From positions 1-26,993 of the IMG/VR virus record IMGVR_UViG_3300013132_000217: a stretch of DNA of 26,993 nt, one strand, 5' to 3'. The notes under the pieces were generated by a model. That model did not search any database. It was not told the DNA's origin and saw nothing but the letters and a program-made list of their open reading frames with translations. Below are positions 4,182-26,370 of this stretch, one piece after another; position 1 is the first letter of the stretch; every line of letters starts with the position of its first letter. Source of the stretch: a virus. The translations under genes were made by a program, and so were the position numbers.

Positions 4182-4491
4182 AATAGAAGAAATAGTTATC
4201 TAAACCATTTTTATAATCCTGTAATGAAGATATGAGAGGATATGGTATAGTCAATATACTATTGTTAGGTATATTCCATTCCAATCCTCCATACTGAGGA
4301 TTTGCTTGTAAAATTAACCAACCAAATAAAGGTGTACCATAATATTGTTGTGATACTTTATCTAACCTACTAAAACCTGTTCTATAGATATATCTTTGGT
4401 CGGAAGTTTTGGATGGTAACGGCACAAATGGAACAACAGTTTGTTCACCGTTAATCAAGAATTGTTGGTATCGGTTATAATATGCGTCCAT
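4171..4491 (-). CDS. gp53-like baseplate wedge protein (LysM-like fold)
   Basis: A 106-residue protein whose central part (about residues 40-90) has the pattern of T4 gp53 and LysM-type domains: a start like RLDKVSQQYYGTPLFGWLIL, then N-P, then a short IPNNSILTIPYP segment. In T4, gp53 (196 residues) is a baseplate wedge component that joins neighbouring wedges; this version is shorter and lacks the gp53 N-terminal part. The start codon at 4491 shares its A with the stop of the upstream 1618-residue gene (TAATG), and its own end overlaps the next gene by 11 bases. All three are therefore probably translated from one message in fixed proportion. A generic phage LysM protein is the main alternative. 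Confidence 0.65.
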   Translation of the reverse strand: MDAYYNRYQQFLINGEQTVVPFVPLPSKTSDQRYIYRTGFSRLDKVSQQYYGTPLFGWLILQANPQYGGLEWNIPNNSILTIPYPLISSLQDYKNGLDNYFFYYGR

Positions 4492-7400
4492 TAGTTAAAT
4501 TTACGTTTAAAGTTGTAAGGATTAAAGTTATTACTATCGTTTTTATTTGCGTAAATACTTTGAAGGGTTTTCTTAGTTGCTTCATCAGCAGAACTATTTT
4601 CCGAGGCAGCAAAAATTCTTGTTTGAGTTGTTCCAAAAGTTGGTGTGTATTTTACATAAGTTTGACCGGTTTCACTGTCTTTAAATCCGTTTAAAATTGA
4701 AATCCCATTCTCATTATATTTTTTATATTCATTATATAATAGATTTCCATAATAGTTTTCAACAACGTTTTTAGTTGTTTGGTCTAAACCAACTATTAAA
4801 TCATTAACAAATGTTGTTTTGTTTTTATCAGATAACGCAACAGACATACATAAGTATTCAATCTTTTTAGGTGATGAACTCAATCCATCAAAACCAGCAG
4901 GTAATGTGTATTGGTCAATACCACTATTAAACGCTGTCGGTACAAATAAGTTGGCAGATGTTAAAGCTGATATAAATTGGTTATTGTTATTTGCAATTGT
5001 TGTATAATCATTCTTTAAAGAAGTATATGTGTCAATTGAAGCTCCATTTACAGTTTCACTATTACCTGTGGTTGAGAATATAACAGCAATATTTTTATCA
5101 TTTAATTTACCGTCTTGACCATTTGTAGAACCTGAAACAACAAAATTTAATCTATCAGCATTGTATACATAATCTTGTTCTATTTGAACTAAAGTATTTA
5201 CTGGTTCTGTTGTACCACCAATAAATGTTTCTTTATATGTGTTTGTTACAAATTTTTTGTAATTTGATTTAAAAATTCTTTTTTGAGCGTTTGTAACCGC
5301 AGCTCCAAATGTTGAAAAAATCGGTAGTGTTTCATCATCTAAGTCTGACAATAACTTATCAAATGCTGAGTTAAGAAGTTCTTGAGTTTTTAATGGCTTA
5401 CCGTACAAAGTAGTTGTTGTAGAACCAAATGAACCAGTATTATAACCTATGTTATTATCTTTAGAACTATTAAGTAATTGAAGTGTTGGGTAATTATAGT
5501 TTAATAATGTACTGTTAAACATATTCAACACCCCGTTATAATACTCACCCGTTTTGGTAACAAAATTATTCATAAATGTTGCATATTCTATGGTACCTGT
5601 AACACCACTTGATGTTGCACCGGTTGAAGTGAATACCCCAATCGTATTTCCACCATCATTAGTATTTTGACCTTGATTATTTGATACACCAACAACAGGA
5701 TTTTGTTTTGTTAACGCATCTACAATTTGTTTGTCTAATTTACTAGTATCTTCAGTAGCTTCGGCTCTTTCATCATACATTTCAGTATTTGCATAATAGT
5801 TAAATGATAACGCATTTTGTAATGTGTCCACAGGATTTTTCAATCCAGAACCGCCAACAAAATTAAAACTCAAATTAGCCTCAACAATCATGGGTTGGAA
5901 TCCAATACCTTCAGGATTCATATCAAACGTTTTGTCGTAACTAAAGTTAATTGATGTTGGAATTATTTTGGTATTAAAAAAATCACCAACTCTTAAAACT
6001 AACACTGGCGGTGCCCCAAAAGATGTGTTAAGAGCATCATTATATAATTTCTCACCATTAGGACCAATAGTTGGTATGGTGTCGCCAGGTCTCATACATT
6101 GTTGTAGGAACGTTAATCTTGAGTTAAGTCCTTCAGGTGTTGTTGAGTGGAATGACGGTTGAAAATATTTTAATTTTTCTTTAATAGAATCATATATAAA
6201 TGGATTTTCAGCCTTTAAGACTTCAAAATAATCACATTCATTTAATAAGTATCTTAGTAGTTTTTTAGACGCACCTTTATATAGGTCTTTTTGCGGCTGT
6301 TGCGACCCACTGTTAACGTTTGCACCAGGTTTAATTGGTTGTGGATTTTTTCCGTCAGCAACCAAATTAGCGTTTGGTGCTGTGTTTGTTGGTTGTGAAT
6401 TTGGAACAACAGGTGTTGCAGTAACATTTTTAATTAACGCAGTTCTACAAGCCATTGCTCTAACTGTGTAAATTTCTTTGTTTGGTTGATTGTTTGGGTC
6501 ACCGTCAGTACAATTAAAATTACCAAGATTGATAACACCTTTTGGTGATACGGTGGTTGTTTCACCAACACTAGTTCCTTTTACTACTAATCTACCATCG
6601 TTAATAAAATCATTTAATGAAATACCTCCAGGAAAACTATAAGTTTGGAAAAATTGAATTGCGGAATCTATCCTACGACTTCCTAAATCTTTATTATATC
6701 CTTGAGTTTGTGGTGGTGACGCACTTGCTTGTAATTCAATAGTTACTTGTTGTACTTGGTTTTGAGTTAATTGTTCATAAACTTTAAGACCAAGTTGTTC
6801 TATTTGGGTAAAATTGTTTTCAACAACACCTGAAAAGAAAGTGTTTGTTGCTTGGGCGTTTTGTCCGTTTTGTTCATAAGACAACTGATTTGGTGATGAA
6901 ATATAAGCACTATAAGATTGTTGATATGCGGCATTTGCCACCACACCAGTCTGTGGACCAGGAATATCGTTATCAAAATAAAATCCTAAACCAACGTAAG
7001 TGTTAAAATCAACAGTTTGTGGTGACGATGTTGTCGAACCTCCCGCTAAACTAGCGGTTGATTCTGAATTATTACCCAAATTATTAGAAACGTCACGATA
7101 TTGTTCTTGTGATACATTTGGGTTGTTAACAATTTCCTGCCAAGCTTGTAAATCGGTTAACGGAACAGTATTATAAATTTTTGCCAACTCATATAAATCA
7201 TACTTTTTACATCCAGCAAAGAAGGAATTAACAATTGAATCAACTTTTTCTCTATCACCTTGGTTGGCCAACACTTTGTTGACAATTAAATTCATAATTG
7301 AAGGGTGGTCAACAATCATTTTCCACTTTAAAGTGCCGCTTCTTGATGTATTTTTATATGTGTATATTGGTTCGGGTCTTCCCAAAAATGTTGTTTCATT

Positions 7401-9347
7401 AAATGATGGTCTAGTGTCCTCAGTAAATGTTAAATCATATGGGGGAAACCACATCACTCTACCACCATTTGGTCCTTTTTCACAAGCGGGCAAATCATCA
7501 ACTCGATATCCTGGTCTGTATCCTGTTCTCCAAGCCAAGTTTTCAATAGAAAACATATATTTCTTAACTTGCCCATTAACAATACTATCACCCCCTTTTT
7601 CAGGAGCAATATTGATATTATATGTCGAATCCATTACAGAGTAAGAAAACTTACGAATGTTACCGTCTCTTTTTTGTAAATCATTAAATGTCATATACGG
7701 AGTGTCTTTTGAGAACACTCTACAATACTCCATACCCACATTTTGTTGTCCGTCAGTATATCTTATAACTTGTGAACCTTTAGTAATTTCTTTATATCCG
7801 TCAAAGAAAACTTTAGATGTTTGGTCAATGGCATTACCAACGTGTCCAAATCTAGCACCAGTATTTGGGACAGAATCAATAAGTCTCTGAGTATCATCTA
7901 AAATAGACCCAGGTTTGAAATCATAATTGATTGATGATGTTGATGTTAAATCATCGGCAATTGAAGGGTAGTCAGGGTCTTGTTGACCATAATCACCACC
8001 AGGTTTTTGATACCTACCAGCATTTGGTGCCCATTTACCATTAACCCAAGAAAATCCACCTGTAATATCACCAGTATCATCATATGTTCTTCCCGCCAAA
8101 CCAAATTCAAAGTTTTGGTCGGGTCCTTCATATTCTTTACCTAAGATGTCAGGTCCATAAACAGGAGCGTTTACTTGTTCACCAAATTGGTCAATTGGTA
8201 CTTCACCAGGAGGTGATGTTAAATAACCCGGTTCTCTTTCAGGACTACCAACATAATAAAATCCTGCAGATGCGGCATCGGCAAATCCACCTGTAATAGC
8301 ATTTCCAAGTGCTGAAATAATACCCGTACCACCCGTATTGTATTTCGGACGGAAACGGTTCATGTCAATATTAGATGTCAACTGAGCTCTTTGTCCTGAG
8401 CCAGTGTAGTCCAAAAATAATTGTGATGGTGATGTTGGTCTACTACCAAATAAACCAAATAGACCACCTCTTAAACCCCTTCCAGCGGCTTGTGATTCCG
8501 ATTGTGTTGAGTTAAAATCTCTTTGTTCAAAATAACTACCAGGAATTGGTGAGAATGGGAATGTGAATCCGGCAATTCTTTGGACAATATCTTGTCCTTG
8601 TGATATTGCATCACCACCTGATGTAATTTTCCAATCTCTATCGACAATTGGTCTTTTACCAGCAATTATTTGGGATAAATTAACCGGGTCTTGTAAACCA
8701 TTTAAAATATTTACCCTACCAATAGTATTGTTCCTAACATTTTGGTCAACTCTTTGTTTAAATGAATATTTCGCCCTTTCTGTAGCAATTTTTGCCATCT
8801 CAGAATCTTGGGATAATAAACCATTATCACCTGTTGGGTCTTCTTGTATTAAAACTGCGTATGGTGAATACGATGAAGGTCTAAAACTTGGTGGGTCCCA
8901 ATATGTGGCGTTTTTTTGTACCTTAACAATATCACCAATATTATATAAATTTAAGTAACCACCTTGTGGTCCATACACGTTTTTAATGTATTGTCTTTTT
9001 TGGAATGTTGTTGAATATAATTCTAAGGCATCCGTATATGGGGGATAAGCACCGTAAGGTCCTTGATTTGGATTGTTTGGTGATGTGTTTATTAAACCAC
9101 TAATATCTTTGTCATACCCACCTAATGGACCAAATTCATTAAGTGGATAAAGTATATCTGAGTATGGACTACTATCTATTAAAATATCAGGTGAATCAAC
9201 GATATTGTAATCACTTTGTACTAGTTCCGAAGTTCCTGGTGCCGATGTGGGAACAAAATTTCCAGGTTTTACATATGGTAATAAGTTTCTTAAGAGTAAC
9301 TTATCCCTTAATAATTTTGTCGCACTGAAACTTAACGGACTTGGCAT
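4491..9347 (-). CDS. 1618-residue baseplate/tail structural protein
   Basis: A very long intact frame starting at ATG 9347 (MPSPLSFSATKLLRD). The N-terminal third has recurring Gly-Pro-Gly-Gly-Tyr-type motifs (FGPLGGY, YGPQGGY). Around residues 640-690 there is a block with FLGRPEPIYTYKNTSRSGTL, and around 1118-1195 a block with MNPEGIGFQPM, FNFVGGSGLKNPV and LQNALSFNYYAN. These two blocks look like conserved phage baseplate/tube-cap motifs, but I cannot assign them to a particular T4 gp number. A Gln/Asn/Thr/Ser-rich linker lies at about 950-1030. No enzyme motif was seen. It follows the tape measure gene and is joined by a TAATG junction to the gp53-like gene. A TATTTAT element lies 14 bases before the start. 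A virion structural role is very likely; the exact position in the baseplate is unknown. Confidence 0.8.
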   Translation of the reverse strand: MPSPLSFSATKLLRDKLLLRNLLPYVKPGNFVPTSAPGTSELVQSDYNIVDSPDILIDSSPYSDILYPLNEFGPLGGYDKDISGLINTSPNNPNQGPYGAYPPYTDALELYSTTFQKRQYIKNVYGPQGGYLNLYNIGDIVKVQKNATYWDPPSFRPSSYSPYAVLIQEDPTGDNGLLSQDSEMAKIATERAKYSFKQRVDQNVRNNTIGRVNILNGLQDPVNLSQIIAGKRPIVDRDWKITSGGDAISQGQDIVQRIAGFTFPFSPIPGSYFEQRDFNSTQSESQAAGRGLRGGLFGLFGSRPTSPSQLFLDYTGSGQRAQLTSNIDMNRFRPKYNTGGTGIISALGNAITGGFADAASAGFYYVGSPEREPGYLTSPPGEVPIDQFGEQVNAPVYGPDILGKEYEGPDQNFEFGLAGRTYDDTGDITGGFSWVNGKWAPNAGRYQKPGGDYGQQDPDYPSIADDLTSTSSINYDFKPGSILDDTQRLIDSVPNTGARFGHVGNAIDQTSKVFFDGYKEITKGSQVIRYTDGQQNVGMEYCRVFSKDTPYMTFNDLQKRDGNIRKFSYSVMDSTYNINIAPEKGGDSIVNGQVKKYMFSIENLAWRTGYRPGYRVDDLPACEKGPNGGRVMWFPPYDLTFTEDTRPSFNETTFLGRPEPIYTYKNTSRSGTLKWKMIVDHPSIMNLIVNKVLANQGDREKVDSIVNSFFAGCKKYDLYELAKIYNTVPLTDLQAWQEIVNNPNVSQEQYRDVSNNLGNNSESTASLAGGSTTSSPQTVDFNTYVGLGFYFDNDIPGPQTGVVANAAYQQSYSAYISSPNQLSYEQNGQNAQATNTFFSGVVENNFTQIEQLGLKVYEQLTQNQVQQVTIELQASASPPQTQGYNKDLGSRRIDSAIQFFQTYSFPGGISLNDFINDGRLVVKGTSVGETTTVSPKGVINLGNFNCTDGDPNNQPNKEIYTVRAMACRTALIKNVTATPVVPNSQPTNTAPNANLVADGKNPQPIKPGANVNSGSQQPQKDLYKGASKKLLRYLLNECDYFEVLKAENPFIYDSIKEKLKYFQPSFHSTTPEGLNSRLTFLQQCMRPGDTIPTIGPNGEKLYNDALNTSFGAPPVLVLRVGDFFNTKIIPTSINFSYDKTFDMNPEGIGFQPMIVEANLSFNFVGGSGLKNPVDTLQNALSFNYYANTEMYDERAEATEDTSKLDKQIVDALTKQNPVVGVSNNQGQNTNDGGNTIGVFTSTGATSSGVTGTIEYATFMNNFVTKTGEYYNGVLNMFNSTLLNYNYPTLQLLNSSKDNNIGYNTGSFGSTTTTLYGKPLKTQELLNSAFDKLLSDLDDETLPIFSTFGAAVTNAQKRIFKSNYKKFVTNTYKETFIGGTTEPVNTLVQIEQDYVYNADRLNFVVSGSTNGQDGKLNDKNIAVIFSTTGNSETVNGASIDTYTSLKNDYTTIANNNNQFISALTSANLFVPTAFNSGIDQYTLPAGFDGLSSSPKKIEYLCMSVALSDKNKTTFVNDLIVGLDQTTKNVVENYYGNLLYNEYKKYNENGISILNGFKDSETGQTYVKYTPTFGTTQTRIFAASENSSADEATKKTLQSIYANKNDSNNFNPYNFKRKFN

Positions 9348-13658: not shown

Positions 13659-16600
13659 TTAAATGTTTTCAAATGAAGCTCCAGTTGGGGTAATCAAGAA
13701 TTCAATATCAATGAATTCAAGTGCCTTAGTTGGTTTCAAGTAAATTTTACCTGTCATAGTATTTCTATCCAAATCTTCAGGTGAATTACTTACCGTTACT
13801 CTGAAATCATATAAACCTCTATCTCTTCTGATTGCATCTAAGATTGGGTTAACTGAATCCAAGAAGTCTTGTCTAACTTTAGCGTCATTTTGTTCAAACA
13901 ACAATCTTACAGCTACTGCCGAAATTAACTTACGAGCTTGTAATAACAATCTTCTTACGTTAATTCTGTTCAACGCTGTGTCAGCAATTTGTAAAGTTTT
14001 ATTACCCCAAATTACTGTTCCAACATCAGAGAATGTTGCGATTGGGTTAATTCTACCTTGGTATAAAGTATCTCTATCTTCTTGTGTAAGTTTCTTACGT
14101 GCTTTGATAGCATTTACTAAACCTCTTGTATAACCCGCAGTTGCGAACCATGGGAATGAGATATTATCAGTTAATGCTAAGTTTCTACATACTTCATTTG
14201 TTGGTGGAATGTAAATTTGTGTATTATTTACAGTGTCTCTAACCAAAATCCATGGGTAGTAAGTTGCTGTGTAGTTATTATCGATACCAGTATTGTCAAG
14301 ATTATCAACCGCCTCAGTTGGGTATATAAAGTTGTCTGTTTGAGTTGGTATATAAACGTTACTGTCAGGTGTTGTTACAACGTAGATAGAGTCAGCTCTG
14401 TCATATGTAACCATATCAATAGCCGCTTCAGCCAAGTTTGAGTTATTAACATAGTCAATACCAGGAGTTGCAAATACGTTAATGTTTACTGCCTCAGGGT
14501 TATTGAATGTGTAGATACCTAACAAGTAAGCATAGTAGTCAGTATTAGCAAAATCAGTGAAGTTACTAATTGTAATTGGTTTAAACGCTCCCCAACCTGT
14601 TGCGTTTGGATAACGAGTTGTTGAACAAGCTCCCGCTTGATAACCAGCTCCACCCAATACAAATCTATCAGTGTTAGTTCTGTATTCTCTGTAAATGTCC
14701 CATCCGTCAAAACCACCTTGTACTAAGAATGAGAATTTACGTGCTTGGATTTGGTAGTAAGGACTCGCAGAAGTTTCAGGGTCAGATTGGAATGAAGCGT
14801 CACCACAATCAAAAGCTGATGTACCTGAAGTAGGTCCAGTTGCGATTGTTACAACAGTAGCTCCTGAATCCATGTGGAAACCTTTTGTTATGTAATTCCA
14901 AGGTTCTGCTACCACATCAACACAAAGATTATTAGGTTTTTGAGCTCCTTTATATTCGTAGAACATAGGGTCATATCCAATTTGTGAAGAAATACCTAAG
15001 TAAGAACTTCTAACTTTGTCACCAGCGCTTTCAACAGAATTATCAGCTCCCGCAGTTGTGCCAAATGGTGGGTTGTAAATAACTTGACCTGGGAAATTGT
15101 ATGATGTTTTATATACTGGGAATGGAGGTGTTGCACTTGAGTACTCTCTAATTGTGTAACCTTCAAATCCACTTGGAAGTGAGTCGATTGGACAATCAAC
15201 GTTCAATTCCAACATAATATATTTTGAATTTAATGCATATTCTCCGTCAGATGTTCCAATTTTAACACCAATATAACTATTGTTAGCAGGGTCCATAGAA
15301 CAATTTGTGAATTTTTCTAAGATAACAGGATTAGTATCTGTATCGAAGAAATCACGAACCGCTAAGTCAAATGAGCCGTTGGTAAATGATATATTTTGAA
15401 TTGAAATTTTTATTTGTGTGTTAGCACTGTTACCATCAGCAATTGTGATAACCTTAAACATTTTATCAACCGTACTACCACGTAATTGTGATACAACCCA
15501 TGGAGATTCTGCTGATTTATATTTTTCTAAATAATATGCAATTGTTCCTGTTGTAGAACCATATCTTAATCCTGGTAATGATACTAATGTAGAATTAAGA
15601 CCTCTAATATAACCTTTGTTATATCCGTAGTTTAATAAGTTCTGATACCACTCTTCAGTAAACAATGGAATTTCAGCTCTTGGTTTACCAAAGTTAGAAA
15701 CACCAAATACTTTATTGATGTAGTTAGCATCTGAACTATTTAATGATGTTGCAAATGAGAATGATTCAGGTGATGAAGCTCCGTCTGTATAACCTGAAAT
15801 CGCAAATTGTGCGTATGGGTTTTGAGAAATACCTGAATATGAACCAGTATCATCAATAACAACACTTGTTAAACCTGTTACTTGGTAAGCCGGACCTGTA
15901 TTTGAACCAACATATGTTGAAATACCTCTTGAACGAAGAGTTGCCACCACCAAATTGTTATAGTCTGAATAAGCAGTACCTGTATATGTGTATACCGTTC
16001 CTGAAACTGTACCAGTAAAAGCTCCAGAACCTAAATCAGCCATTTGATTTACTAATGTGTAGAAAGAGAAACCTGTATACGCGTTTCCTGATGAAATATT
16101 AAAGTTAGAGTAATACCAAGAATCATTTAAACTTGATGTAAAATCAGCATCTGATGTTGAAACGCCAGAAACTTGGAATACGTTTGTCTCTGCGGTGTAA
16201 GTAGTTGACAATCCAGTATATCCTGAAGCAGGTATTGTACCAAAATAAGAAATGGAACTTCCTGATGTTGAACCCGAATCATTTATAATTTCAGTAATTT
16301 GTGTGTTTAAGTCATTTTGAAAAGTTGTAGTACTTCCATTATATTGTGTGTATTGGGTATTTAATTGGGTTTCAATTATTGACGGGAACGATGTTGTAAA
16401 ATTAACTGATGTCGAACCTGTAGAACCTGACCAGTTAACACTGAAAGTTGTTCCGGTACTTGCCGTGTTTAAACCAACTGTTGAACCGCTAACATTAGCA
16501 ATTGTTGTTATAGACCAAGATGGACCCGCATCGTAACCCGATAGTCCAAGTACTCTTGTTACAAACAATTGGTTAGATTGTTGAAGGTATGATTTGGCGA

Positions 16601-16838
16601 TATAGGCCAATTCGTATTTAGGGATTTGGGTGTTTACAAATTTTTCAGGAATTGTCCCGCCAAAGTAAGCTTCGAATTCATCGTAGTTAGTGATAAAGAT
16701 AGGTTCAAACGCTGGACCTGTTAATGTCTCACCAACAAGACCCAAAGTTGTTACACCCACACTTTGAGCTACGAAGCTAAGGTCTCTTTCTGATGTGTAT
16801 ACACCAGGAGAAACGAAAATTTTATTTGATACTGCCAT
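13659..16838 (-). CDS. Tail sheath protein (T4 gp18-like) with large insertion
   Basis: A 1059-residue protein. The N-terminus (residues 1-105, beginning MAVSNKIFVSPGVYTSERD) and the C-terminus (about 860-1059: FATAGYTRGLVNAI, NKTLQIADTALNRINVRRLL, FRVTVSNSPEDLDRN, VYLKPTKALEFIDI-type end) are classic contractile sheath domains that form the linked outer tube. T4 gp18 is 659 residues, so this protein is about 400 longer. Most of the excess lies at 106-385, a Ser/Thr/Gly/Tyr-rich beta-type region, probably an exposed decoration domain on the sheath surface. More variable sequence fills 460-760. ATG 16838 is preceded by a TATTTAT element and followed by a strong terminator, as expected for a high-copy late product. 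Confidence 0.92.
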   Translation of the reverse strand: MAVSNKIFVSPGVYTSERDLSFVAQSVGVTTLGLVGETLTGPAFEPIFITNYDEFEAYFGGTIPEKFVNTQIPKYELAYIAKSYLQQSNQLFVTRVLGLSGYDAGPSWSITTIANVSGSTVGLNTASTGTTFSVNWSGSTGSTSVNFTTSFPSIIETQLNTQYTQYNGSTTTFQNDLNTQITEIINDSGSTSGSSISYFGTIPASGYTGLSTTYTAETNVFQVSGVSTSDADFTSSLNDSWYYSNFNISSGNAYTGFSFYTLVNQMADLGSGAFTGTVSGTVYTYTGTAYSDYNNLVVATLRSRGISTYVGSNTGPAYQVTGLTSVVIDDTGSYSGISQNPYAQFAISGYTDGASSPESFSFATSLNSSDANYINKVFGVSNFGKPRAEIPLFTEEWYQNLLNYGYNKGYIRGLNSTLVSLPGLRYGSTTGTIAYYLEKYKSAESPWVVSQLRGSTVDKMFKVITIADGNSANTQIKISIQNISFTNGSFDLAVRDFFDTDTNPVILEKFTNCSMDPANNSYIGVKIGTSDGEYALNSKYIMLELNVDCPIDSLPSGFEGYTIREYSSATPPFPVYKTSYNFPGQVIYNPPFGTTAGADNSVESAGDKVRSSYLGISSQIGYDPMFYEYKGAQKPNNLCVDVVAEPWNYITKGFHMDSGATVVTIATGPTSGTSAFDCGDASFQSDPETSASPYYQIQARKFSFLVQGGFDGWDIYREYRTNTDRFVLGGAGYQAGACSTTRYPNATGWGAFKPITISNFTDFANTDYYAYLLGIYTFNNPEAVNINVFATPGIDYVNNSNLAEAAIDMVTYDRADSIYVVTTPDSNVYIPTQTDNFIYPTEAVDNLDNTGIDNNYTATYYPWILVRDTVNNTQIYIPPTNEVCRNLALTDNISFPWFATAGYTRGLVNAIKARKKLTQEDRDTLYQGRINPIATFSDVGTVIWGNKTLQIADTALNRINVRRLLLQARKLISAVAVRLLFEQNDAKVRQDFLDSVNPILDAIRRDRGLYDFRVTVSNSPEDLDRNTMTGKIYLKPTKALEFIDIEFLITPTGASFENI

Positions 16839-18724: not shown

Positions 18725-20494
18725 TTGGAAAATGCTGAAAACATAAATAATATTTCCGTTGTGGAAAGGAAAGCCCTCGACATACTTGAAACGTATGAAG
18801 GAGCTAACAATTATATTATGCGGTTAAAATCCAAAATGATTAACAATCCAAAGTTTTATCCTACAAGAGCTCAAGCCGAATACATAGTTAACTACCATAC
18901 AAATATACCTAAGGTTGCTAAAAAATGGGTTGGTTTGGATATGTATTTTGCCAATAAAATTGCTGATGAAAAATTGTTTCAACAAACACCAACACATGTT
19001 TATGTTGAAAAGTTACTAGTTGAAAAAGATACGTCATACCATATTTGGGGTAAGTATTTTGAATCCGAAGAAATTAAAGATTTTTGGGTTCCCAAAGCGG
19101 CGTTATTTAAAGATAATAAAGTTAAAAATGTTGTTATTGATTTTGACAAATACTCAAACCGTCCACCATTAGAACATCAAAAAGAGGCTATTAAGTCTTT
19201 GCTCGAAAACAAAAAGTTTATTTTGGCGGATGATATGGGATTGGGTAAAACCACATCAACCATTATCGCTGCTTTAGAAACGGGTGCTAAAAAAATTATG
19301 ATAATATGTCCAGCGTCTTTAAAGATTAACTGGCAAAGAGAAATTCAAAATTATTCTGATAGACCTACATCTATTATTGAAGGGAAAAAATGGGAAGATG
19401 GTGATTTTATTATTATCAATTATGATATAATAAAAAACTTTCACGATGAAAAAGATAAATCAAAATCACTTATTCTTAACTCAGGTTTTGATTTGGTAAT
19501 TGTTGACGAGGCTCATTATATTCAAAACAAACAAGCACAAAGAACCAAGTTAATTAACGATATTGTTAAAAATATTGATAGGTTATGGTTGTTGACAGGT
19601 ACACCAATTACCTCAAGACCAATTAACTATTTTAATTTACTTAACCTAATCGATAGTCCTGTAGCACTTAATTGGATGGCATATGTTAAAAGGTATTGTA
19701 ACGGATTTCAATTCAGAGCGGGAAAAAGAAAAGTTTGGAATGTAAGTGGGGCTTCTAATTTAGAAGAATTAAGAGACAGAACATCACCACAAGTATTAAG
19801 AAGACTTAAAGAAAATGTGTTAGATTTACCTGATAAAATTATAACACCTGTTTATCTTAGATTAAAATCAAAAGAATATGAATCTTTAATGGGTGAGTAT
19901 TATGAGTGGTATGACAAAAGCGGTGAAGCGGATTCTTTAACACTTCAATTTACAAAATTAACTAAAGTTAGACAAGTGATTGCCGAAGAAAAAGTTAGTT
20001 CTACTATTGAACTTTGTGAAAATATTATTGAACAGGGTAAAAAAGTTATTGTCTTTACAAACTTTACAAAAACTTTGGAAATGATATTGGAACATTTTGG
20101 AAAAAAGGCTGTTAGACTTGATGGTAGTATGTCCCAAAAAGATAGACAAATTTCTGTTGATAGATTTCAAACTGACGAAAATGTAATGGTGTTTGTTGGG
20201 AATATTAAAGCGGCTGGTGTTGGTATTACTTTAACCGCGGGTGAAGCTGTTGTAATGAATGACTTATCATTTTTACCTTCGGACCACTCACAAGCCGAGG
20301 ATAGAAGTTACCGTTATGGACAAAAAAATAATGTGTTAGTTTATTACCCAATTTTTGACAATACTGTTGAGGGAATCATTTATGACATGCTCAAAAAGAA
20401 GAAAGATATTTTTGAAACTGTCATGGGAGATAAAATTGCAAATGGTGATTATGTCCAAGAAATTTTAGAAGTTATAAATAATTGGAGAAGATAA
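18725..20494 (+). CDS. SNF2-family DNA helicase/translocase
   Basis: A 589-residue SF2 ATPase. Motifs seen: LEHQKEAI (Q-like, about 149), Walker A DDMGLGKT (169-176, K175), Walker B DEAH (261-264), motif III TGTP (291-294), a C-terminal lobe with VIVFTNFTK, and motif VI QAEDRSYRYGQ. These match SNF2 proteins of the SMARCAL1/HARP-like type more than T4 UvsW. Such enzymes move on double-stranded DNA and remodel forks or displace proteins. Residues 1-140 are a separate, unassigned N-terminal domain. The start is unusual: the frame begins at TTG 18725 (LENAENINN). No ATG occurs in frame until residue 32, although residues 2-31 look coding. It heads the rightward block and is divergent from the gp14-like gene. 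Confidence 0.88.
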   Translation: MENAENINNISVVERKALDILETYEGANNYIMRLKSKMINNPKFYPTRAQAEYIVNYHTNIPKVAKKWVGLDMYFANKIADEKLFQQTPTHVYVEKLLVEKDTSYHIWGKYFESEEIKDFWVPKAALFKDNKVKNVVIDFDKYSNRPPLEHQKEAIKSLLENKKFILADDMGLGKTTSTIIAALETGAKKIMIICPASLKINWQREIQNYSDRPTSIIEGKKWEDGDFIIINYDIIKNFHDEKDKSKSLILNSGFDLVIVDEAHYIQNKQAQRTKLINDIVKNIDRLWLLTGTPITSRPINYFNLLNLIDSPVALNWMAYVKRYCNGFQFRAGKRKVWNVSGASNLEELRDRTSPQVLRRLKENVLDLPDKIITPVYLRLKSKEYESLMGEYYEWYDKSGEADSLTLQFTKLTKVRQVIAEEKVSSTIELCENIIEQGKKVIVFTNFTKTLEMILEHFGKKAVRLDGSMSQKDRQISVDRFQTDENVMVFVGNIKAAGVGITLTAGEAVVMNDLSFLPSDHSQAEDRSYRYGQKNNVLVYYPIFDNTVEGIIYDMLKKKKDIFETVMGDKIANGDYVQEILEVINNWRR

Positions 20495-20543: not shown

Positions 20544-22094
20544 ATGAAGAATCTTAAAAATAAGATTGAAGTAATTGAAGAAGAATTACAAAAAAACGAA
20601 GAAAAAAGAAAACACGAACAATCAATTAGAAAAAGTGTTAACGAAAACAAACAAATTAAAATAGAAAGATTACCGTATTCATACTCAGCGTTGAAACAAT
20701 TTATTGACCCTGAGACAATGAATGTTCATTACAACAAGCATTATAAAGGGTACGTTGATAAGTTAAACAACGCTCTAAATAACAAAGATGATAAAGAATT
20801 ATCATTAGAAGAAATTATAAAAACTATTGAAAGGTTTAATAAATTTATTCGTGATAATGCTGGTGGAGCTTATAACCATCAATTATTTTGGAAGATGTTA
20901 ACCCCAAAACCAACTAAAATGGGTCCAATTACAACCAAAAAAATCAATCAAGCATTTGGTTCATTTGTAAATTTTAAAAAGAAGTTTGAAGGTCAAGCTA
21001 AGGATAGATTTGGTTCAGGATGGGTTTGGTTAGTTCTTACAAAAAGAGGTGTTGTAAAAATTATGACAACCCCAAATCAGGACAATCCTCTTATGGATGT
21101 TGTTGAACAAGGTGGTTACCCAATATTGGGATTGGATTTATGGGAACACGCGTATTACCTAAAGTATAGAAATAGACGTGATGAATACATTAAGAACTTT
21201 TGGAAGGTTGTCAATTGGGATTATGTTGAGAATGAATTAAAATTAAAATCTGACAAACAAATTAAAGAATCTCAAATCGCTAAGGAAGTATTGACCGAAG
21301 CTGTTAAAAGCGAACCATGTACCCAATCTGAAAAGATGGATTCGAAAAAATTATTTAATACAAATAGAGACGCATTATCGGTTTATAAAAATGCGATAAT
21401 GCAAATTTTAAAAGAAGTTTTTGCCGACAGATATTATGGACGAGATGAATATGCACCAGGTCAAATGTCAGGAATTTATAATTTAGAAGGTGAAGGTAGG
21501 TCTGTTATAAATTATTTAAACACTAACTACAGTGCTTTTTGTGTTCTTAAAAAAGACCTTAACAAATACCTAAATAAAGTTGGTCAACCCATAATAGATT
21601 TTTCAAACAAAAATCCAAAAGAACAAGTTGATGAAATGGTTAGGATGTTAAAAATTTTAAACCAAGTTAAATTTAGAGTTTTTTCATCAGAATCAGAAAC
21701 ATTTAAAACAATAATGGGTGTTATGGGAGCAACATCCACAAAAGGTAATAAAACCGAAGATGTTGTTGTTGAGAAACTAAAGTCAGTTTTTGGTGATGAC
21801 AATGTGATTAGAATAGGTGAACTTGGAAGTAAGGAAGATATGATGGCTGGTGTGGATGTTAAAATTATTATAGACGGAAAAGAACATACTGCACAAGTTA
21901 AACCGTTCAGTCATATAACAAGAGTGGAAGATGATTATAAAGTTGATGGAACTGCGAATGTTAAAAAATACAAAACGGATTGGATGATATTTTTAAAACG
22001 TTTAGAAGACTTAGTTATTTTTGATAATTCAAAAACTAAAATAATTGATGGTGTTTATTTCTTTCCTGTAGATACAAAATTGTATCAATTGTAA
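20544..22094 (+). CDS. Mn/Fe superoxide dismutase fused to PD-(D/E)XK-like domain
   Basis: A 516-residue protein in three parts. Residues 1-35 are a charged, probably coiled-coil segment. Residues 40-235 are a full Mn/Fe superoxide dismutase domain: ligands H62 (VHYNKHY), H112 (AYNHQLFW), D198 and H202 (LDLWEHAYY), gateway tyrosine Y70, and NQD at 178-180, which places the active-site glutamine as in Mn enzymes. Residues 265-400 are unassigned. Residues 400-516 look like a PD-(D/E)XK nuclease fold: E405, D438 in GVDVKIIIDG, and QVK at 451-453. Bacterial SODs are about 200 residues and stand alone, so this fusion is unusual. The metal centre looks intact, so dismutase activity is plausible, but the domain could also serve as a structural or redox-sensing module. 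It lies between the helicase and neck genes in the same direction. Confidence 0.85.
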   Translation: MKNLKNKIEVIEEELQKNEEKRKHEQSIRKSVNENKQIKIERLPYSYSALKQFIDPETMNVHYNKHYKGYVDKLNNALNNKDDKELSLEEIIKTIERFNKFIRDNAGGAYNHQLFWKMLTPKPTKMGPITTKKINQAFGSFVNFKKKFEGQAKDRFGSGWVWLVLTKRGVVKIMTTPNQDNPLMDVVEQGGYPILGLDLWEHAYYLKYRNRRDEYIKNFWKVVNWDYVENELKLKSDKQIKESQIAKEVLTEAVKSEPCTQSEKMDSKKLFNTNRDALSVYKNAIMQILKEVFADRYYGRDEYAPGQMSGIYNLEGEGRSVINYLNTNYSAFCVLKKDLNKYLNKVGQPIIDFSNKNPKEQVDEMVRMLKILNQVKFRVFSSESETFKTIMGVMGATSTKGNKTEDVVVEKLKSVFGDDNVIRIGELGSKEDMMAGVDVKIIIDGKEHTAQVKPFSHITRVEDDYKVDGTANVKKYKTDWMIFLKRLEDLVIFDNSKTKIIDGVYFFPVDTKLYQL

Positions 22095-22121: not shown

Positions 22122-23240
22122 ATGGCGGTAATTCCTGAACCACAAAGAACAAGACTCTACAATCGAATTTTAAATCAATTGGGCGCTCCATTAAGAGCGG
22201 TTGAATTAGAGTTTGAAATGATGGACTCGTTGTTAGAATTGTCCATTGGTGATTATACACAATACGTTTACGATTGGTTAATTGAATCTCAGTGGACAAC
22301 ACTTTATGGTATGAATTTAGACACCCAATCTGTGGCTAACGCTTTAGTTAGAAGGACTCTTGATTGGGAAACTCAATATACTTACGCGTATTCAAAAATT
22401 GTAGGTCTTCAAAGTAATGGTCCTTGGGTTTTGAAAAAAGACTATTTTGAATTACAAGAAAACGTTCAAATTTATGAAATACCTGCCGGTCGTGAAATTA
22501 ACGAACTTTTATGGTATTCGCCAGCAGAAGAAAACAACATGATGTTTGACCCATGGTCATTTGGGTCTTTTGGAGGTAGTGGTGGACTTGGTGGACCTGG
22601 CGGGTTTGCTCAAACAGGGTATGGTGGTGGAGGATATTTCTTTTTCCAATCTTATGATGTTTTAGCTAGACTACAAGACGTTAATTTAAAAAGAAGAATT
22701 ATACAACCAGATGTTAGTTATAGAGTAACAGCACTTCCAGATGGAAAAAGAGCCATAATGCTTTATAATACACCGGGTGGTAAATTTGATTTTGGTGACT
22801 CAGAACTCATGAGAGGTAGAGTTTGGTATTGGTATTATGATACTGGAGATGCCGATAGAGACCAATGTTTGAAAGACAATCCTGACATCGTAAAATTACC
22901 ATCAGACATCCCATTGGATGCTTTAGAGTGGATTGATTTGAATGACCCCGCACAACAATGGGTTAGAAGATGGTTTACCTCATATTGTAAAGAAACATTA
23001 GCCAGAGTTCGTGGTAAATTTAGTGGTAATTTAAAAACTCCTGATAGTGAGTTAACGATGGATTATCAATCTTTACAAACTGAGGCTAAAGATGAAAAAG
23101 TCTCTTTATATACAGAACTTAAAGAAAGATTAGAAAGACTTCGTCCAGAAAAACAAATGGAAAAAGAAGCGTCAATCGCTGAAAACTTAAACAAACAACT
23201 TAAGTTTAGAGCAATGCCAATTCCAATTACAGTAGTTTAA
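22122..23240 (+). CDS. gp13-like neck protein with Gly-rich loop
   Basis: A 372-residue protein. The N-terminal helical domain (NRILNQLGAPLRAVEL, then LELSIGDYTQYVYDWLIE) matches the pattern of T4 gp13, a neck protein that starts with a similar LGAP-VEL helix pair and helps close the portal vertex. T4 gp13 is 309 residues. Residues about 148-171 form a Gly-rich stretch (SFGSFGGSGGLGG and GYGGGGYFFF), probably a flexible loop. The C-terminus (300-360) is a charged helix rich in Glu/Lys. A TATTTAT element lies 12 bases upstream. One base separates its stop from the next gene. The presence of gp14- and gp15-like genes nearby supports a neck role, although here it is on the opposite strand. Confidence 0.55.
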   Translation: MAVIPEPQRTRLYNRILNQLGAPLRAVELEFEMMDSLLELSIGDYTQYVYDWLIESQWTTLYGMNLDTQSVANALVRRTLDWETQYTYAYSKIVGLQSNGPWVLKKDYFELQENVQIYEIPAGREINELLWYSPAEENNMMFDPWSFGSFGGSGGLGGPGGFAQTGYGGGGYFFFQSYDVLARLQDVNLKRRIIQPDVSYRVTALPDGKRAIMLYNTPGGKFDFGDSELMRGRVWYWYYDTGDADRDQCLKDNPDIVKLPSDIPLDALEWIDLNDPAQQWVRRWFTSYCKETLARVRGKFSGNLKTPDSELTMDYQSLQTEAKDEKVSLYTELKERLERLRPEKQMEKEASIAENLNKQLKFRAMPIPITVV

Positions 23241-23241
23241 T

Positions 23242-23577
23242 ATGTCAATTATTAGAAGTATACCAGCAAAGAAAATTATTAACGGTTTTGAAGTTAAAAC
23301 TTCAGAACTGGCAATTGTATCTGAAAAAGAATATAAAACAAATGGTGAATATTCCATTGTAATTAGAGGAGTTGAATCTTGTAAACTAAAATTAGACTCA
23401 TCAACAACTGATAGAATTAAAATCAAAGCAATGACAAATGTTCTTGTTATTCCTGACATGAATTCTGTAGATGAAGAATGGGACGAAATAACCTTAGAAA
23501 AAGGTGCCTGTGTTGAGTTTGTGTTTATTAACCAAACTTGGTATATACTATCTTCAGATGGTTTGAAAATCTGGTAA
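23242..23577 (+). CDS. Small beta-rich protein of unknown function, probably virion-associated
   Basis: A 111-residue protein starting one base after the gp13-like stop (TAATATG), so it is almost certainly co-translated. It alternates short hydrophobic strands with polar turns and ends in a CVEFVFINQTWYILSSDGLK motif, a Trp-Tyr-Ile-plus-Ser-Asp-Gly ending that I associate with small phage tail or head decoration proteins. No catalytic residues or membrane segment were recognised. Its last 24 bases overlap the end of the convergent DNA polymerase gene, an unusually tight tail-to-tail arrangement. I do not recognise a family. Confidence 0.65.
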   Translation: MSIIRSIPAKKIINGFEVKTSELAIVSEKEYKTNGEYSIVIRGVESCKLKLDSSTTDRIKIKAMTNVLVIPDMNSVDEEWDEITLEKGACVEFVFINQTWYILSSDGLKIW

Positions 23578-26370
23578 GTTTATCATTAAATCTCTCCAAC
23601 CATCTTCAGCGTTATCATAGATATACGTTGGTTCCAAACCTCTTTTTTTCCAATAACTTAATTCATTTTCGGATATTGTTAAAACGTCATTTAAATCATC
23701 TTGGTCACCATCACCCAAAGGATGTCCGTTAATTAGTTCACATTGTGAAGTGGTAAAAATACCTCTATCTTCAGGTTTATCAACAATCAAAGCCTTTCTA
23801 ACTTCATCTTTAAAAACAACCAATAATGGTTCAATTCGTTTGTTGAATGTTGACATTGCTCTTGGAACGTTGTATTCACCGGTTAAATCGGGGTTATTTT
23901 CTAATTCAGAGGTATCTAACATATAACAATTAAGTCTAATCATAGAATCTAACTTATCATCAGGATTTTTACCATAAGTTGTTAAATAATATTTTAAATC
24001 ATCTTCTCTCCAACCACTCTTAAGTTTATTAACTTTTTGAACATCCCCATGAGAAGCTTTAGTTCCGTTATTAACATACATAATAACATCACCCAAATTA
24101 ACATTTAATTTGTGTTGTATTGCAAGTTCCATATGAGCTTGTCTAGACATTAAAGAACCCGCCTTTGTTTTTTGAGTACATCTTGATTTATAATCAGACA
24201 AACTCTGTTTTACTTTAGCTCTTTGAGCAATTTTTGCCAATGGAACTTTTTGGTCGTAAATTTTTTGAATATATTCATAGTAATATTCAATAAAGTCTTT
24301 ACCCTTACCTTCTAAAAGTAATTTAATTCCTTTGTCCAAAAACTCCTCAATATAACCTGGTAATTTCTTTGATTTAATTGTATTACCAACCAATTTGATT
24401 TTACCTTTATCAGTCATAAGAGCGTAGTTTTTACGAGCCAAATTTATACACGCCGGCCAAACACCATCATTATCAAGAGCCATTTCTCCTCTCATGAATA
24501 TATCGTTATATTCGGCAATATCTGCCGCAGCACCAATATATTCTTTACCTTCTTTTACTTTCCAATTTAAACCTCGTCCAATATATTTTCGAGTTTCCAC
24601 ATCTGGTGGTGATGAAAAGTTAACACCGTCAGTATCCATAACCAATGGTTCATATCCTCGTTTCATAAAGAAACCAATCATCTGACGCAAGTACTGACGA
24701 CCCGTACAAGTGATTTGTTCACCCATGTACATATCACCCCAATGGAATACCTGTGGAGCGGATAATGCACCAAACATCGAGTTAATAAAAATCTTAATAG
24801 GTAATTGTTTACGGTCATAAGATTTAGATTTTTTAGGGTCAGACTTTTCAAATTCTTCCGCTAATTGTTTGTATTTGATACGAGTTGAACGAAAATATCC
24901 CAATAAACCTTTCATCGCGCCTGTCACATCACATTCAGGAAATACATCGTGTACCAACTGAATTGATGGGTATAGTGATGAGAAGTCCAATTTCAATACA
25001 GATGTTGAGTATCCTACTTTAATCAAACGTGATAGTCCCCCAACAAAATCGGTTTTACTTTGTTTTTCAGGAATGGCTAAGTTGTACTTATACGACCAAG
25101 CCAACATAATCATTTTCCATAATGTTGCGGTACCCATAGTTGAAACCCTTTCATATGTTGTTGGGACCAAAGACGCCAACAAAAATGAACCCTGATTAAA
25201 TTCATCATCTACTCGTAAGGTTTCATCCAAGTCATCATCAAGATATTGTTCAACCAATTGGTCACCTGTAACTTTTTTATAGGTACCAGGAAATCTAACA
25301 TCCAAATTATCAAATTGTGGATTGTCAGCTCGTTTATATTTACCATTTTTGATGTTTAACCAATATTCTTCTTTCTTAGAATACATGGGACCAATATCCG
25401 TATGGTCAATATATACACGGTCTTCATCCTCAATTTCTAGATACTGAGTAATATATTTCAAACCTGCCGACTTAATATTTGAGTTGATGGCTTGAGCTCT
25501 ACGTACCGAATGTAAAATATCAATAATGTTATATCCCCACATAGAAGTTTGGGGGTATCTTTCCACCTCATTAGCCAATTTCAACATTTGTTCTTTTTGA
25601 GAAATTGGTCTATCGGGATTTAATGATTTGGCAACTTTTCTAATATCTAAACCCAAAGCTTTTGCTCTTTCGAATATCCAATACCAGTCGAAGTTAAATG
25701 AATTGTATCCACCAATAATACTTGGTTTTAGTTCATTTATTGTGTCAAAAAAACGTATAATTCCTTGTTTTTCCTTTTCTTCAGTATCACATTCAATAAC
25801 TTCATGAAAACCTCTATTTGTTTTCATTCCAATCATAAAAATACGACCGTCCTTTGGTTCAAGTGAGGTCGTTTCCAAGTCAAATACAAATCTGGTTATG
25901 TCATTATATTCTTCATACCCCTTGAATAGTCTCTTTTCTTTTTGAATTAAGTATTGTTCAACAGGGGGTAACATTAAAAATAACTCACGAGATTTCTCAC
26001 CCCAAGGGTCTATACCACCATCACGAAAAAATTGAGTTAATGCTCTGTATCCCGCCAAAGATTTAACCATATAAGTCAAACCTTTTTCTAATCTTTCATT
26101 TCCATGTGTTTCTAACTTGTCAATAACAATCTTATGTTTTGACATTGCCTCTTTTTGTAATGCTTTTGAACCTTGGTAGAAATTTAATCCTCTAAGGTCG
26201 CCAACCCACGCAAATGGAACAAAATGGTCTTTTAAAATTTGTTTTCCCTTACCAGGAATCTCCTTAATCTTATAAATGGAGTCAGTCACATAGTCAAATT
26301 CTATGGACACAATAAATTCTTCTGGGTCGTTGCCCTGAAGAAAAGATTCAATTTCTTCGTTAGATATCAT
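23554..26370 (-). CDS. Family B DNA polymerase (T4 gp43-like) with proofreading exonuclease
   Basis: A 938-residue replicative polymerase (T4 gp43 is 898). Exonuclease motifs: Exo I FDLETT (D164, E166), Exo II GYNSFNFD (D228), Exo III YLDDD (Y376, D380). Polymerase motifs: A LDFSSLYPS (D462), B KIFINSMFG (K526, N530), C VMDTDG (D579, D581). All key residues are present, so both 3'-5' proofreading and synthesis should work. It would copy the phage genome together with other replication proteins not in this window. The start at ATG 26370 has no TATTTAT element upstream, unlike the virion genes, which fits expression at an earlier phase from a different promoter. Its 3' end overlaps the convergent small gene by 24 bases. 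Confidence 0.95.
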   Translation of the reverse strand: MISNEEIESFLQGNDPEEFIVSIEFDYVTDSIYKIKEIPGKGKQILKDHFVPFAWVGDLRGLNFYQGSKALQKEAMSKHKIVIDKLETHGNERLEKGLTYMVKSLAGYRALTQFFRDGGIDPWGEKSRELFLMLPPVEQYLIQKEKRLFKGYEEYNDITRFVFDLETTSLEPKDGRIFMIGMKTNRGFHEVIECDTEEKEKQGIIRFFDTINELKPSIIGGYNSFNFDWYWIFERAKALGLDIRKVAKSLNPDRPISQKEQMLKLANEVERYPQTSMWGYNIIDILHSVRRAQAINSNIKSAGLKYITQYLEIEDEDRVYIDHTDIGPMYSKKEEYWLNIKNGKYKRADNPQFDNLDVRFPGTYKKVTGDQLVEQYLDDDLDETLRVDDEFNQGSFLLASLVPTTYERVSTMGTATLWKMIMLAWSYKYNLAIPEKQSKTDFVGGLSRLIKVGYSTSVLKLDFSSLYPSIQLVHDVFPECDVTGAMKGLLGYFRSTRIKYKQLAEEFEKSDPKKSKSYDRKQLPIKIFINSMFGALSAPQVFHWGDMYMGEQITCTGRQYLRQMIGFFMKRGYEPLVMDTDGVNFSSPPDVETRKYIGRGLNWKVKEGKEYIGAAADIAEYNDIFMRGEMALDNDGVWPACINLARKNYALMTDKGKIKLVGNTIKSKKLPGYIEEFLDKGIKLLLEGKGKDFIEYYYEYIQKIYDQKVPLAKIAQRAKVKQSLSDYKSRCTQKTKAGSLMSRQAHMELAIQHKLNVNLGDVIMYVNNGTKASHGDVQKVNKLKSGWREDDLKYYLTTYGKNPDDKLDSMIRLNCYMLDTSELENNPDLTGEYNVPRAMSTFNKRIEPLLVVFKDEVRKALIVDKPEDRGIFTTSQCELINGHPLGDGDQDDLNDVLTISENELSYWKKRGLEPTYIYDNAEDGWRDLMINLPDFQTI

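Follow-up and report, generated by a model that had tools for sequence, protein, structure and literature searches.

The internal proteins IPI-IPIII and Alt of phage T4 carry a capsid-targeting leader which is removed by gp21, and these proteins are ejected with the DNA. Most of the proteins known to be injected by phages are anti-restriction factors, ADP-ribosyltransferases or polymerases. In T4 the prohead protease gp21 cleaves after L/I-X-E, and the N-terminal CTS leaders of T4 have been shown to suffice for the packaging of foreign proteins, nucleases included, into the head (PMC9026906). The leaders of giant phages are longer and carry several protease sites (PMC5694885). A superoxide dismutase (SOD) is packaged in the virion of the chlorovirus PBCV-1 (PMC7019647). 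Here we describe a phage gene whose product joins a SOD to a nuclease-like module. The gene lies in IMG/VR record IMGVR_UViG_3300013132_000217, positions 1 to 26,993, and this whole stretch of 26,993 nucleotides is referred to as the window. From its sequence and from structural models we consider it moderately probable that the product is a capsid-targeted cargo precursor, cut in the prohead into a SOD and a nuclease. The parts of the gene are listed below; a slash in a motif marks the point after the Glu.

20544-22094, plus strand: SOD-nuclease precursor ORF, 516 aa
20544-20645, plus strand: N-terminal leader, residues 1-34, predicted helical, charged and variable; candidate capsid-targeting propeptide
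20637-20648, plus strand: site 1, V-N-E34/N, of the gp21-type form [LIVM]-x-E
20661-21239, plus strand: Fe/Mn superoxide dismutase domain, residues 40-232 (H62, H112, D198, H202; Q179)
21240-21317, plus strand: linker, residues 233-258, variable and of low confidence
21261-21272, plus strand: site 2, I-K-E242/S
21291-21302, plus strand: site 3, L-T-E252/A, between SOD and nuclease
21324-21743, plus strand: helical N-terminal half of the C-terminal module, residues 261-400, with the motif NTNYSxFC
21744-22091, plus strand: PD-(D/E)XK-like nuclease core, residues 401-516 (E405, D432, D438, Q451-x-K453)

Both Fe/Mn SOD domains of Pfam are found in the N-terminal half of the protein (Sod_Fe_N, 7.2e-21 at residues 40-119; Sod_Fe_C, 5.4e-39 at residues 131-230), and the alpha-hairpin and C-terminal domains were present in 25/25 family members checked. 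The closest PDB structures are Mn-SODs, with 6gsc as the top match (3.4e-60). Alignment to the E. coli Mn-SOD places the metal ligands at H62, H112, D198 and H202, the second-sphere or gateway residues at H66, Y70 and E201, and the Mn-type glutamine at Q179; the roles of these residues, assigned by alignment and from general knowledge of SODs, are presumably those of the known enzymes. The four ligands and the glutamine had already been picked out in a first-pass annotation made from the letters alone, which named loss of the ligands in homologues as the outcome that would count against it. The homologues were examined, and ligands, second-sphere residues and Q179 are unchanged in all 38 non-redundant relatives with a SOD domain. 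By sequence, the SOD half is thus a complete, canonical Mn-type enzyme with its catalytic residues intact. Values of dN/dS, for pairs with estimable dS, were about 0.03-0.14 for the SOD and nuclease-like domains alike, and on this measure strong purifying selection acts on both. A frameshift, an assembly artefact or chance was ruled out as the origin of the fusion since the same ORF is present on hundreds of contigs, with at least 362 IMG/VR stretches encoding relatives of the protein. In a tree the phage SODs form a single clade relative to the cellular SODs sampled, which is most simply read as a single ancient capture. Most of the nearest cellular SODs come from Bacteroidota and are about 50% identical. 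Ordinary bacterial-looking SODs were also seen in four unannotated INPHARED 'phage' records, some of them very short (OR845917, OR851122, OR850395 and OR846594), and these probably reflect host DNA in the deposits.

In the C-terminal part the first-pass annotation had read a PD-(D/E)XK-like pattern (E405, D438, Q451-x-K453), and both conservation and predicted structure agree with it. E405 and D432 are kept in 41/41 aligned rows, and D438, Q451 and K453 in the 40/40 rows that extend that far, one of the 41 being incomplete; the E405/D438/Q451/K453 arrangement was also found again in distant relatives of the module. Structure prediction, which the annotation had proposed as a check, was run with AlphaFold2 on residues 253-516 with 29 relatives (mean pLDDT 88, pTM 0.81) and gave, rather than some other fold, a mixed alpha/beta core of the PD-(D/E)XK type. 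In this model E405 lies on a long helix, D438 starts one strand and Q451-x-K453 is on the next. The best Foldseek matches in the PDB were I-Ssp6803I and the archaeal Hjc, with the resolvases Hjc/RecU also matched, and the top 21 were all PD-(D/E)XK enzymes of the I-Ssp6803I/Hjc type (probability at most 1.00, best E 1.6e-3). In Pfam the module has no match, and its matches among the PHROGs are scattered and weak. As its sequence profile gave only chance-level matches against the PDB, assignment of the fold rests on the predicted structure, and a PD-(D/E)XK-type nuclease fold is likely but not proven. PADLOC returned no defence-system match for the fusion protein and only generic SNF2 matches for the neighbouring helicase. 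The deposited phage protein A0A6J5L953 aligns to the entire module (TM 0.91, 34% identity). The same module is seen in BFVD entry A0A8D9CCA0, an uncultured marine phage protein of 1113 aa (TM 0.84), and other, larger fusions therefore exist.

The genes around the fusion gene are those of a myovirus, and the sheath and polymerase genes flank a conserved locus.

13659-16838, minus strand: tail sheath protein (phrog_23, 1.1e-55), giving the myovirus context
18725-20494, plus strand: SNF2-family helicase, conserved upstream neighbour (Pfam SNF2-rel_dom, 9e-29; phrog_62, 1.1e-112)
22122-23240, plus strand: gp13-like neck/head-completion protein, conserved downstream neighbour (phrog_211; PDB profile match)
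23554-26370, minus strand: family B DNA polymerase (phrog_262, 2.9e-55; Pfam DNA_pol_B)

The downstream gene was assigned to phrog_211, a head-tail adaptor, in 13/13 members, and its profile match to the T4-type neck protein gp13 in the PDB is weak (E 0.01). A search for the same domain order in other phages, also suggested in the first-pass annotation, was productive: 228 complete copies were collected, some contigs being represented more than once, of which 173 have the SOD (SOD+) and 55 lack it (SOD-). A further 90 copies from two divergent queries all had the SOD, and a search with the C-terminal profile gave at least 452 relatives. The SNF2 translocase noted beside the gene in that annotation is real and its position is conserved, the order SNF2 helicase, fusion gene, gp13-like gene being found in 168/173 SOD+ loci and 52/55 SOD- loci. 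The largest contigs with relatives reach 318 kb. The closest named DNA match of the capsid protein, over a short stretch, is to the Flavobacterium phages 'immuto'; this, together with the mostly Bacteroidota affinity of the nearest cellular SODs, makes Bacteroidota hosts likely for the carriers, a widespread group of freshwater T4-like phages. Two further ORFs of the window may be recorded here. The sheath protein (13659-16838, minus strand) is 1059 aa long, its sheath domain being preceded by about 750 residues, and is much longer than T4 gp18; a 1618-aa ORF in the tail/baseplate region (4491-9347, minus strand) has no Pfam match.

In the alignment the freely varying regions are the leader (residues 1-38) and the linker (residues 233-258), and the full-length model falls below a pLDDT of 50 only at residues 28-35 and 239-250. 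The leader varies in both sequence and length yet is present in every SOD+ form. Within these regions E34, E242 and E252 have hardly changed while the residues around them diverged widely. E34 is present in 38/38 rows, with L, I or V at P3 in 38/38; E242 is present in 40/41; and E252 in 40/41, with L or I at P3 in 39/41. Two residues before each Glu stands L, I, V or M in almost all cases (V at the end of the leader in the window protein and a small number of relatives), and forms such as LFLNE/M, FLTE/A and VLSE/G are found among the relatives. The [LIVM]-x-E motif was counted in SOD+ rows, in fixed intervals set from the SOD start and the invariant Cys259, and compared with proteins whose leader and linker had been shuffled. 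It ends the leader, at site 1, in 55/55 non-redundant relatives (6.0 in shuffles), and occurs at site 2 in 55/55 (8.5 in shuffles) and at site 3 in 54/55 (6.5 in shuffles), the exception being the SOD+ relative L060. All three motifs occur together in 54/55, against a mean of 0.1 and a maximum of 2 in shuffles, although kinship among the proteins inflates these counts. The three sites are therefore put forward as candidate prohead-protease cuts, and because two conserved sites of this type lie in the linker and a third at the N-terminus, the SOD and the nuclease are predicted to be separated. Against this, L-x-E is a short motif and conservation of the Glu could reflect folding or another contact.

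The SOD has been lost twice, as strongly supported branches of the tree force two separate changes; the tree was rooted on a megaphage protein, a poor root with a zero-length branch, and was used solely for the nesting of SOD-less rows. In the first SOD-less lineage (309 aa; L209/L213) the protein reads ...PSINE/MKKIEIEKLKSIISE/GKSERCS, so that sites 1 and 3 are kept and the SOD is gone. In the second (277-294 aa) the leader is joined to LSE/S or LSE/T, and in two short members the Glu itself has gone (LIQ in L220, LST in L237). A similar leader is retained in the 294- and 309-aa forms. Six SOD-less contigs (91-318 kb, possibly incomplete) showed no SOD at any other position. With the SOD lost, the module kept and no SOD found elsewhere, the SOD is the optional part and the nuclease-like module the constant one; judged from these proteins the SOD behaves as a cassette between sites, whose loss leaves the nuclease and, in most cases, the site beside it. 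This does not favour a joint task for the fused domains, as the first-pass annotation had supposed, since the sites predict their separation and the nuclease stayed through both losses. The module also stands alone in larger phages. A 290-aa form with no obvious leader is encoded in a 735-kb phage (L082:5743-6615; LR756501.1), and no relatives of this protein were found among viral contigs. A more distant form of 251 aa, from a 634-kb phage (L464:3632-4387; LR745206.1), starts MKKFTEYIKE/S, which we take to be closely like the leader of T4 IPIII.

As the window is a 27-kb fragment, genes for a prohead protease and a capsid protein were sought in its relatives. Peptidase_S77 was found in 5/10 large related contigs, most of these contigs being genome fragments, and a Gp23-type capsid protein in 5/8 related contigs. 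The two capsid proteins read begin ...ASHLINE/ASST and ...ASFLINE/ATAE and continue into a conserved mature region; in both, LINE/A follows a conserved pre-sequence and has the same form as the sites of the SOD-nuclease protein. A pre-sequence followed by a mature region is likewise the arrangement of T4 gp23. In the two relatives of 295 kb and 309 kb, 12 and 14 ORFs open with a leader of the type '[LIVM]xE[ST]...LxE/'; shuffling gave 1.1 and 1.65, and later windows 0-4. The linker of the SOD-nuclease protein fits the pattern 'LTES...LxE/' in 128/135 cases, with 0.05 matches per protein elsewhere. This shared leader may be a general capsid-targeting leader of these phages, and the ORFs bearing it may encode head cargo. 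A family of small ORFs in the relatives G002 and G001 (L333-L347, L348-L363) begins MKKI[IV][KR]LTESDLxxIVKRVLxE/Q or MKLIITESQYxxLxxE/; examples of leader-bearing ORFs are G002:102905-103375, G002:186729-187427 and G001:287929-288825.

A scheme may be built on what is seen in the sequences and models, namely both domains with their catalytic residues, the three motifs, the protease and capsid site of the relatives and the modular loss of the SOD. The leader would carry the precursor into the prohead, where the phage's own S77 (gp21-like) protease would cleave on the C-terminal side of E34, E242 and E252; this would remove the leader and free the Mn-type SOD from the PD-(D/E)XK-like nuclease. 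Both would stay in the mature head and probably leave it with the DNA when a host is infected. The SOD would then clear superoxide from the surroundings of the entering genome or of the early infection complex, and the nuclease would act on host or competitor DNA or on branches, its substrate being a guess. Packaging, cleavage, ejection and the two enzyme activities are what we infer. We count in favour of packaged cargo the gp13-like neck neighbour, the stand-alone relatives, one of which has a T4-like leader, the shared leader type, and the precedent of the virion-packaged SOD of PBCV-1. Points on the other side are that a nuclease in the head would have to spare the DNA of its own phage, that the upstream neighbour is a helicase and not a head gene, and that the pattern has gaps (the Glu lost in L220 and L237, site 3 absent in L060, the 290-aa relative leaderless). 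The fuller proposition, that the head carries and injects an antioxidant SOD and a DNA nuclease from one prohead-protease-cut polyprotein with the SOD as an exchangeable cassette, falls somewhat short of an even chance. Of the earlier suggestions for the SOD, the one that placed it in the virion came closest, as predicted packaged cargo, while a structural role for the fold is not supported; superoxide sensing was dropped as nothing spoke for it.

The conserved, co-directional adjacency to the SNF2 helicase makes a partnership of the nuclease with that helicase possible, and taken with the Foldseek matches to Hjc/RecU resolvases it could point to an intracellular, Holliday-junction-resolvase-like nuclease acting with the helicase in recombination, repair or the clearing of branches for packaging, the SOD shielding the complex. 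We think this unlikely, as it leaves unexplained the three L-x-E sites, a leader that varies, the T4-like leader in the 634-kb phage and the loss of the SOD, and the other neighbour is a neck gene. It is less probable still that the protein is an auxiliary metabolic SOD which lowers superoxide in the infected cell, with the C-terminal domain a passive DNA- or capsid-binding anchor devoid of nuclease activity. The intact catalytic residues and purifying selection suit such a role, and a captured host enzyme is possible given the Bacteroidota-like SOD and the Flavobacterium phage as closest named capsid relative, but conservation of the nuclease motif is no lower than that of the SOD ligands, and the module persists in the SOD-less contigs. 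A homing-type endonuclease joined to a SOD gene, suggested by I-Ssp6803I as top Foldseek match, is very improbable and was dropped, as the gene occupies a single fixed locus with the same neighbours in 220/228 loci and shows a vertical signal with no sporadic insertion pattern.

A search of the open-access literature gave no paper describing a fusion of SOD and nuclease in a phage, or a SOD in a phage virion. Phages were already known to target cargo to the capsid and to process it with a prohead protease; what appears to be new is a precursor in which protease sites separate a SOD from a nuclease. If the SOD is packaged or injected, it would follow that superoxide genuinely endangers incoming phage DNA, or is a host response that it pays the phage to block, and cargo domains set between prohead-protease sites would offer a natural way to load more than one enzyme into a capsid as a polyprotein. 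Candidate head cargo could be picked from the genomes of these uncultured phages by means of the conserved L-x-E sites and the 'LTES...LxE/' leader.

Among deposited proteins, A0A6J5L953 (501 aa, uncultured Caudovirales phage) is a homologue of the fusion, although its title, 'superoxide dismutase', omits the second domain. The stand-alone Mn/Fe SODs of other phages, such as the Pseudomonas PA5oct group and Vibrio phage 2.275.O, have the SOD domain in common with the fusion but are only 28-29% identical, with the match limited to the SOD part and none to the nuclease part. I-Ssp6803I and the archaeal Hjc share the predicted core fold and the E...D...[EQ]xK arrangement, but the relationship is remote (E at least 1.6e-3, TM to target 0.41-0.49); the matches do not extend over the helical half, and the acidic residue of the xK motif is replaced by Q in the fusion. 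We know of no SOD among the ejection proteins of giant phages of the phiKZ/SPN3US type. These proteins resemble the fusion in their longer leaders with several protease sites and in belonging to large phages (PMC5694885), although the phiKZ protease cuts after S/A-x-E (PMC9026906). PBCV-1 is likewise a dsDNA virus that packages a SOD, packaging in the fusion phages being predicted, but it is a eukaryotic virus and its enzyme (A245R) is a Cu/Zn SOD with no nuclease partner described there (PMC7019647). There is also a likeness to IPI-IPIII and Alt of T4: the leader of the fusion also ends in a hydrophobic-x-Glu site (PMC9026906), and its large relatives encode an S77 protease as well as a capsid protein of the Gp23 type whose site is similar. 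The fusion differs in a leader of about 30 aa against about 10, in showing no sequence similarity to the IPs, in that its packaging is predicted, and in that one precursor joins two enzyme-like domains, with internal sites lying between the two.
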